Assembly (NCBI RefSeq): GCF_023078495.1
Contig: NZ_CP095742.1
Coordinates: 1,426,001-1,490,000 of the forward strand
Source of the DNA: Luteibacter aegosomatissinici
Lineage (GTDB): Bacteria > Pseudomonadota > Gammaproteobacteria > Xanthomonadales > Rhodanobacteraceae
Length of the DNA: 64,000 nucleotides
Reading direction: 5' to 3'
The position numbers and the translations under genes are program-made. The notes under the pieces were generated by a model that searched no databases, was not told the origin of the DNA, and was given only the letters and a program-made list of their open reading frames with translations. Shown one piece after another: positions 1,361-1,564 of this stretch; positions within the stretch are counted from its first letter, which is position 1; each line of letters begins with the position of its first letter.

Positions 1361-1377
1361 CTTGTGTCTTTGCCGCG

Positions 1378-1530
1378 GCGTAGGCTGATGGGTGAGAGCG
1401 GAGTGCGGCAAGCCGATGATGGCCGGTGCCAGGAGCACGTGTAGGAGCAAGGGCTGCCGCACTCCCTTCACCAAGCCCGAACAGTTGCTCGAGTCCTACC
1501 TCGAATTCACAAGCCGGGGCTGGTGGAGGT
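1378..1530 (+). ncRNA. Candidate IS110 bridge RNA, copy 1
   Basis: Two consecutive stem-enclosed loops are visible. The first stem pairs 1401-1409 with 1456-1464, plus 1411-1414 with 1452-1455. Its loop has a small central hairpin (1426-1429/1435-1438) flanked by TGGCC (1420-1424), which partly matches the left target flank GTGGCC, and by GTAGGAGC (1441-1448), complementary to the right flank GCTCCTAC. The second stem pairs about 1469-1478 with 1517-1525. Its loop holds ACAGTTGCTC (1481-1490), identical to the element's right end 2488-2497, and CACAAG (1508-1513), complementary to its left end 1361-1366, again around a hairpin (1490-1493/1500-1503). This is the target-loop and donor-loop plan described for IS621. 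Ends are approximate; expression is inferred. Confidence 0.72.
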
Positions 1531-1564
1531 GCTCTCACTCCCGATCCTACTCCGGAGAGACGCC

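Follow-up and report, generated by a model that had tools for sequence, protein, structure and literature searches.

A predicted bridge RNA in the left end of an IS110-group element of Luteibacter aegosomatissinici, with Rfam family sX15 on its reverse strand

The left end of an IS110-group insertion element of Luteibacter aegosomatissinici almost certainly encodes a bridge RNA that addresses both the target repeat and the joined ends of the element. On sequence grounds, the Rfam family sX15 corresponds to the strand opposite a bridge RNA. The bridge RNA itself is of a known kind; the reverse strand may be the part that is new.

The element and the fold of its left end

The element occupies positions 1363-2494 (+) of the window, the 64,000-nucleotide stretch of DNA that was analysed, and measures 1132 bp between two CT cores (Table 1), which the first-pass annotation had recognized at both junctions. 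The genome contains four copies of the element, differing by 0-1 bases. An identical second copy lies in the window at 54652-55783 (+), with its bridge RNA at 54679-54829, and the two remaining copies, outside the window, carry one base change. The transposase has relatives of solved structure in ISCro4 and IS621. When it is aligned with ISCro4, residues D, E, D, D, and S coincide; on the basis of the IS621 literature, we take these to be the catalytic residues. The left end of the element is 202 nt long. The element does not show the bridge RNA in a long right end that characterizes the IS1111 group: the RNA is in the left end, and the right end comprises just 9 nt from the stop codon to the core.

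Table 1. Positions of features of the element and its left end in the window
Feature	Position	Strand	Basis or remark
CT core, left junction	1361-1362	+	left target GGTGGC ends at 1360
-10-like TAGGCT, putative bridge RNA promoter	1381-1386	+	sequence
Match to Rfam RF02234 sX15	1386-1539	-	61.6 bits, cut-off 55; reverse strand of bridge RNA
Bridge RNA (predicted)	about 1390-1540	+	full-length hit (67 bits) of covariance model R1
Outer stem, 5' half GTGAGAGC	1392-1399	+	pairs with 1531-1538; fold and covariation
Target-loop stem 1, 5' half	1400-1409	+	pairs with 1456-1465; fold and covariation
Left target guide GATGGCC	1418-1424	+	target GGTGGC and core C
Right target guide TGTAGGAG	1440-1447	+	reverse complement of core and right target CTCCTACA
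Handshake guide CA	1448-1449	+	complementary to donor positions 6-7, TG
Target-loop stem 1, 3' half	1456-1465	+	fold and covariation
Donor-loop stem 2, 5' half	1466-1473	+	pairs with 1521-1528; fold and covariation
Left donor guide ACAGTTGCT	1481-1489	+	identical to right end plus core, 2488-2496
Right donor guide TTCACAAG	1506-1513	+	complementary to CTTGTG, 1361-1366
Handshake guide CC toward target	1514-1515	+	first base faces target position 7
Donor-loop stem 2, 3' half	1521-1528	+	fold and covariation
Outer stem, 3' half GCTCTCAC	1531-1538	+	fold and covariation
Antisense -10-like TAGGAT	1544-1549	-	placed to start antisense RNA at outer stem
IS110 transposase, 306 aa	1565-2485	+	PF01548 (DEDD) and PF02371, both above cut-off
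CT core, right junction	2495-2496	+	right target CCTACA next

The RNA of the left end folds with an energy of -79.3 kcal/mol (z -4.3). The antisense strand folds almost as stably (z -4.2), and therefore the strand is not given by the fold alone but is decided by other tests. An outer stem, absent from the first-pass annotation, encloses two arms. In arm 1, a hairpin separates the left from the right target guide, and a handshake pair follows; arm 2 repeats this plan with the left and right donor guides and a handshake pair of its own. The proposal of two stem-closed loops, each with a hairpin and two guides, is borne out by the fold, the covariation, and the guide matches. The two stems that had been placed at 1401-1414/1452-1464 and about 1469-1478/1517-1525 exist, but their best positions differ: stem 1 is at 1400-1409/1456-1465, supplemented by a short inner helix, and stem 2 is at 1466-1473/1521-1528, extended by 1475-1478/1517-1520. 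A microRNA match, mir-9416, scored 28 bits against a cut-off of 100 and was discarded, as was SpR10, with 19.4 bits against a cut-off of 50.

Covariance model R1 was built from the left ends of six relatives (alignment A4) with the window excluded. The model finds the RNA of the window de novo on the sense strand, and it has matches in 46 genomes of a sample of 398 from the order. The collected loci, 97 fetched and 13 obtained earlier, number 110 and represent 58 distinct RNAs. The alignment took 44 of the 58, which provided 96 loci for the guide tests; the 14 dropped loci include some intact near-copies. In the MAFFT alignments A1-A3, stem 1 was out of register from one subgroup to another, and the model-fitted alignment A6 was used instead.

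Covariation of the stems among homologues, which had been named as a test of the fold, is present. In the 44 distinct RNAs of A6, which, being model-fitted, is biased towards its own structure, two-sided changes occur in 29 of 43 pairs, and there are 307 compensatory cells compared with 87 (sd 9) in shuffles. Paired cells make up 92.2% of the same alignment and 34-50% when the partner is slid; in the outer stem, 93.3% of cells are paired. The stem substitutions produce 68 G-U cells versus 50 A-C cells, a count that is also affected by the bias of A6, and 59 versus 24 once three badly paired columns, picked post hoc, are removed. The excess of G-U over A-C favours folding of the bridge (sense) strand. 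The reverse strand was rejected as the bridge RNA on this count and on its polarity. In IS621, the first guide of each loop corresponds to the top strand and the guides have the core at their 3' ends, and this arrangement is reversed in the antisense strand.

Guides and insertion sites

The guide assignments of the first-pass annotation were largely retained. TGGCC at 1420-1424 partly matches the left flank, as had been described, and CACAAG at 1508-1513 is complementary to the left end. The right target guide has the complementarity claimed for it, but its place shifts from 1441-1448 to 1440-1447. The leading G of the right flank that had been read as GCTCCTAC is the last base of the element itself (2494) and not part of the flank; its match to C1448 fits the handshake guide of IS621, not a target guide. 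The left donor guide is identical to the right end and core, but it extends over 1481-1489 (2488-2496) instead of 1481-1490 (2488-2497). The first base of the handshake guide CC forms a C-C mispair with target base 1360 in three of the four copies, and in the fourth the target has a G that pairs. The target-side mispair at position 7 is also found in most of the attC branch of the relatives.

All four copies are inserted at a repeat that matches the loop 1 guides, a comparison by which the first-pass reading could have failed. The copies share CT-CCTAC on the right, and on the left three have GGTGGC and one has GGTGGG. In the genome, the uninterrupted repeat has the form GGTGGG-CTCCTAC 299 times versus, by exact search, 10 times for GGTGGC-CTCCTAC. 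Among 12 of the 13 listed loci with uninterrupted repeats (L005-L017), seven have GGTGGC-CTCCTACA, three GGTGAC, and two GGTGGG. The left target guide had been called the weak point of the assignment, and its mismatches are real (5.75 of 7 bases match, mean of the four copies), yet the better-fitting sites are more often occupied. The guide spells TGGC, as in the rare GGTGGC form of the site. Occupancy is 3 of 13 for GGTGGC versus 1 of 300 for GGTGGG (Fisher P 2e-4); at least seven GGTGGC sites are within a longer repeat common to the flanks in the window, and the preference may therefore have other causes. The sequence GGTGGGCTCCTAC, of a large palindromic repeat family, has 299 copies in the genome (e.g. 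C1:423221-423315), and among the matches listed these often lie two by two in inverted orientation, at a spacing of about 82 bp.

In relatives of the element, a change of guide is accompanied by a change of flank, as was found when flanks were compared with loop 1 across relatives with changed guides, a comparison that the first-pass annotation had proposed. The right-guide test covers 64 copies of 25 RNAs in 15 guide classes, since the right end could not be read in the remaining loci; L070 and L216 are the same place, which enters the count twice, and L161, L168, and L195, with right ends beyond the preset distance, were added after inspection. CT begins the right flank in 64 of 64 copies, for most of which it was a prerequisite in the selection script. 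The left-guide test covers 88 flanks of 40 RNAs with 30 guides. Right guides match their own flank at 5.04 of 6 non-core bases, compared with 2.04 (sd 0.40) under class permutation (0 of 20,000), and left guides match at 5.52 of 7 bases, compared with 3.80 (sd 0.17) when permuted (0 of 3,000); owing to kinship among the elements, the permutation counts overstate independence, though the guide classes differ widely. Some guide-flank pairs are set apart by single bases that co-change: guide TAATTC goes with GAATTA, for example, and guide TAACTC with GAGTTA. The matches are weak in the right-guide classes GAGAAGTAG (3 of 6) and GCGTTGTAG (3.4 of 6). The left donor guide and the right end are nearly invariant. 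At handshake position 7, the guide base complements the donor in 24 of 25 cases (shuffled 14.1, maximum 22) and the target in 31 of 42 cases (shuffled 17.4, maximum 28). Position 6 is weak, with 16 of 25 for the donor and 13 of 42 for the target.

The left end could instead be merely a structured leader of the transposase mRNA with accidental matches to the flanks. A leader of this kind is described for ISPpu9 in passages of PMC8450116. However, accidental matches would not account for the joint change of guides and flanks over 15 right-guide classes. The words TGGCC, GTAGGAG, ACAGTTG, and CACAAG, moreover, occur in this order in 0 of 200,000 shuffles of the left end; TGGCC alone appears in 30% of shuffles, and the other three words in 0.7-3.6% each. 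A leader without guide function is thus extremely improbable.

One branch of the relatives (L180-L183 and L186, and by flank L188, L191, and L038) has the flanks CTAAC-GC / CT-GAATTAAGC..GTTAGGC. In this branch, the left guide TAACGC and the right guide TAATTC spell the insertion site. Full attC ends are seen in at least 5 of 10 loci, and the insertion sites are presumably integron attC, judged by the attC consensus. The bridge RNA of L048 (G107:C14:198-351) has the donor guides of the window element together with a different target guide (AGCGGC, with CTCCCAC as the sequence addressed by the right guide); the contig end truncates the right flank. The bridge RNAs of L235 (also G107), L196, and L209 are not followed by a right-end motif over a distance of about 1.7 kb. 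These three are remnants or parts of non-autonomous elements.

A putative -35 hexamer for the bridge RNA, TTGCTT, would arise only in the circular form of the element, where TTG (2492-2494) is followed by CTT (1361-1363); it is separated by 17 nt from the -10-like hexamer. When the ends of relatives are joined in silico, each of the 25 distinct junctions places TTGCTT or TTGACT 17 nt from a -10-like hexamer. The mean score of the junction promoter is 6.8 of 12 versus 4.95 of 12 for 64 integrated left ends. The promoter of IS621 is likewise formed at the junction of the right and left ends, according to sections of PMC11208160.

The reverse strand and the family sX15

The match to sX15 covers the same DNA as the bridge RNA of the window, with nearly the same ends and a similar stem plan, but Rfam models the opposite strand, and the Rfam name and description have no link to IS110. 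The sX15 model has 23 matches in 10 of 233 genomes of one family. A transposase adjoins 16 of the 23 loci, and in all 16 the RNA is upstream of it and on the antisense strand; the seven loci without a transposase are taken for contig ends or remnants. Among 20 chosen loci, 15 pass the sX15 cut-off, and 15 of 15 are antisense to the bridge RNA.

The family sX15 was reportedly discovered in Xanthomonas euvesicatoria strain 85-10 by RNA sequencing. In plasmid pXCV183 of this strain, sX15 scores 150.9 bits and is located in a truncated IS110 left end (L111 2994-3152, about 116,378-116,536 of NC_007507.1). By eye, the RNA is followed by a start resembling that of an IS110 transposase, broken off after some codons; tblastn at this locus gave no significant transposase match. 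The bridge RNA of pXCV183 is also present in two X. hortorum plasmids. The name sX15 is absent from PMC11208160 and PMC11187229, and a search of open-licence literature found no printed link of sX15 or Asr9 to bridge RNAs.

Asr9 belongs to ISPpu9, an IS110/IS492 element of Pseudomonas putida that inserts in palindromic repeats. The consulted parts of PMC8450116 describe Asr9 as a highly stable antisense transcript, about 180 nt long, that covers the leader of the transposase. Its -10 overlaps the ribosome-binding site of the transposase, mutation of its -35 did not abolish Asr9, and transposition increased 3- to 4-fold when additional Asr9 was supplied (PMC8450116, in part). The small RNAs of ISPpu9 are cited in passing in a portion of the bridge RNA paper PMC11208160. 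The reverse strand of the window RNA resembles Asr9, as far as PMC8450116 was consulted, in being antisense to a transposase leader, in having a -10-like motif at the ribosome-binding site, and in belonging to an element in palindromic repeats. The two differ in that expression and activity were measured for Asr9, whereas the antisense RNA of the element is predicted from sequence. Orphan copies of ssr9 in P. putida, flanked by end boxes of the element, look like RNA-only non-autonomous units in the same passages of PMC8450116.

In the window, the antisense TAGGAT is positioned immediately before the ribosome-binding GGAG. The antisense pattern TAnnnT (sense AnnnTA) occurs 5-14 nt past the outer stem in 36 of 38 distinct leaders, compared with 1.9 (maximum 7) in shuffles and 16 of 38 for the next commonest gapped pattern; the count skipped 15 loci with no outer stem, no GGAG, or an N. 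The middle three bases are variable. The misses are L155/L158, in which the leader was shortened by the script, and the remnant group L163/L165/L167. The antisense -35 score over 40 upstream sequences is 2.65, compared with 2.30 (sd 0.14) when shuffled, and no clear -35 was found.

By analogy with Asr9, sX15 may be an "anti-bridge" RNA, transcribed antisense to the bridge RNA. It is fairly probable that sX15 is a real, separate RNA, made in addition to the bridge RNA from a promoter that lies between the latter and the start of the transposase and points backward. Such an RNA would be complementary to the bridge RNA and the transposase leader and would regulate transposition. The constant antisense orientation, both beside transposases and among the matches above the cut-off, agrees with such an RNA, as do the conserved TAnnnT and the position of the Rfam sX15 5' end in pXCV183, 7 nt past an antisense TAGGCT by hand count. 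Asr9 provides a precedent demonstrated by experiment (PMC8450116, in the parts consulted). However, the antisense promoter has no clear -35, the strand and 5' end of sX15 come from the Rfam model, and the stem substitutions favour the sense strand.

These substitutions, together with the covariation, also fit a simpler reading, in which sX15 is the bridge RNA filed in Rfam on the wrong strand and there is no antisense RNA. The reverse complement folds too, and a model made from the wrong strand would therefore show structure as well. Nevertheless, a misfiled strand is rather unlikely: the ends of sX15 are better suited to an antisense start, with the other end in pXCV183 entering the sense -10 (determined by hand), and the conserved antisense TAnnnT would be left without an evident reason.

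Relation to known systems and meaning

The element reproduces the target-loop and donor-loop logic of IS621, as had been claimed, in that the order and polarity of its guides are as in the sections of PMC11208158 consulted. Within the parts of PMC11208160 and PMC11208158 used here, IS621 shares with it a DEDD/Tnp recombinase, the CT core, and a bridge RNA in the left end, and further the succession of target loop and donor loop, the guide polarity, handshake position 7, and the junction promoter. In both loops, the left guides would pair with the bottom strand and the right guides with the top strand, as in IS621. Handshake position 7 is complementary for the donor but, in three of four copies, not for the target. 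The element has another target repeat and other guides than IS621. The IS621 RNA is described, in these parts, with a 5' stem loop, a target loop, and a donor loop, whereas in the window RNA an outer stem closes both arms. This stem, which sets the window RNA apart from IS621 by description, may not be unique among IS110/IS1111 bridge RNAs.

The seekRNAs of ISEc21 and of IS1111 elements are, like the window RNA, products of a non-coding region that match both target strands, and ISEc21 likewise uses an upstream region (PMC11187229, in part). In contrast, the IS1111 members tested in the consulted part of PMC11187229 have the two target matches in the reverse order. The IS1111-attC group targets attC, as does one branch of the relatives (L180 and others). 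However, that group belongs to IS1111, whereas the relatives of the window element carry the RNA in the left end, as in IS110, and the window element itself targets a different repeat.

The features of the element suggest the following mechanism. On excision, the two ends of the element would be joined in a circle and create a promoter, from which the bridge RNA would start near the closing outer stem. The RNA would fold into the two arms indicated by the fold and covariation. Arm 1 would pair with the target repeat GGTGGC-CT-CCTACA and arm 2 with the joined ends of the element, ACAGTTG-CT-TGTG, both of which it matches in sequence. As in IS621, the transposase would use the bridge RNA to recombine target and donor at the CT core. 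The other strand of the same DNA is, by model score, the family sX15. A two-strand switch in the IS110 group can be proposed tentatively, as a possibility that we hold to be slightly less likely than not: a promoter present only in the circle would produce the bridge RNA, and a promoter of the integrated form would produce an antisense anti-bridge RNA (sX15, perhaps Asr9) that anneals to all guides and to the transposase leader and sets transposition.

The 15 right-guide classes with known flanks constitute a natural set of bridge RNAs that is useful for deriving the targeting rules of IS110 recombinases. An orphan small RNA family of Rfam, sX15, would find its explanation as the strand opposite a bridge RNA. 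This leads to the testable prediction that elements of this kind transcribe a complement of their guide RNA as well.
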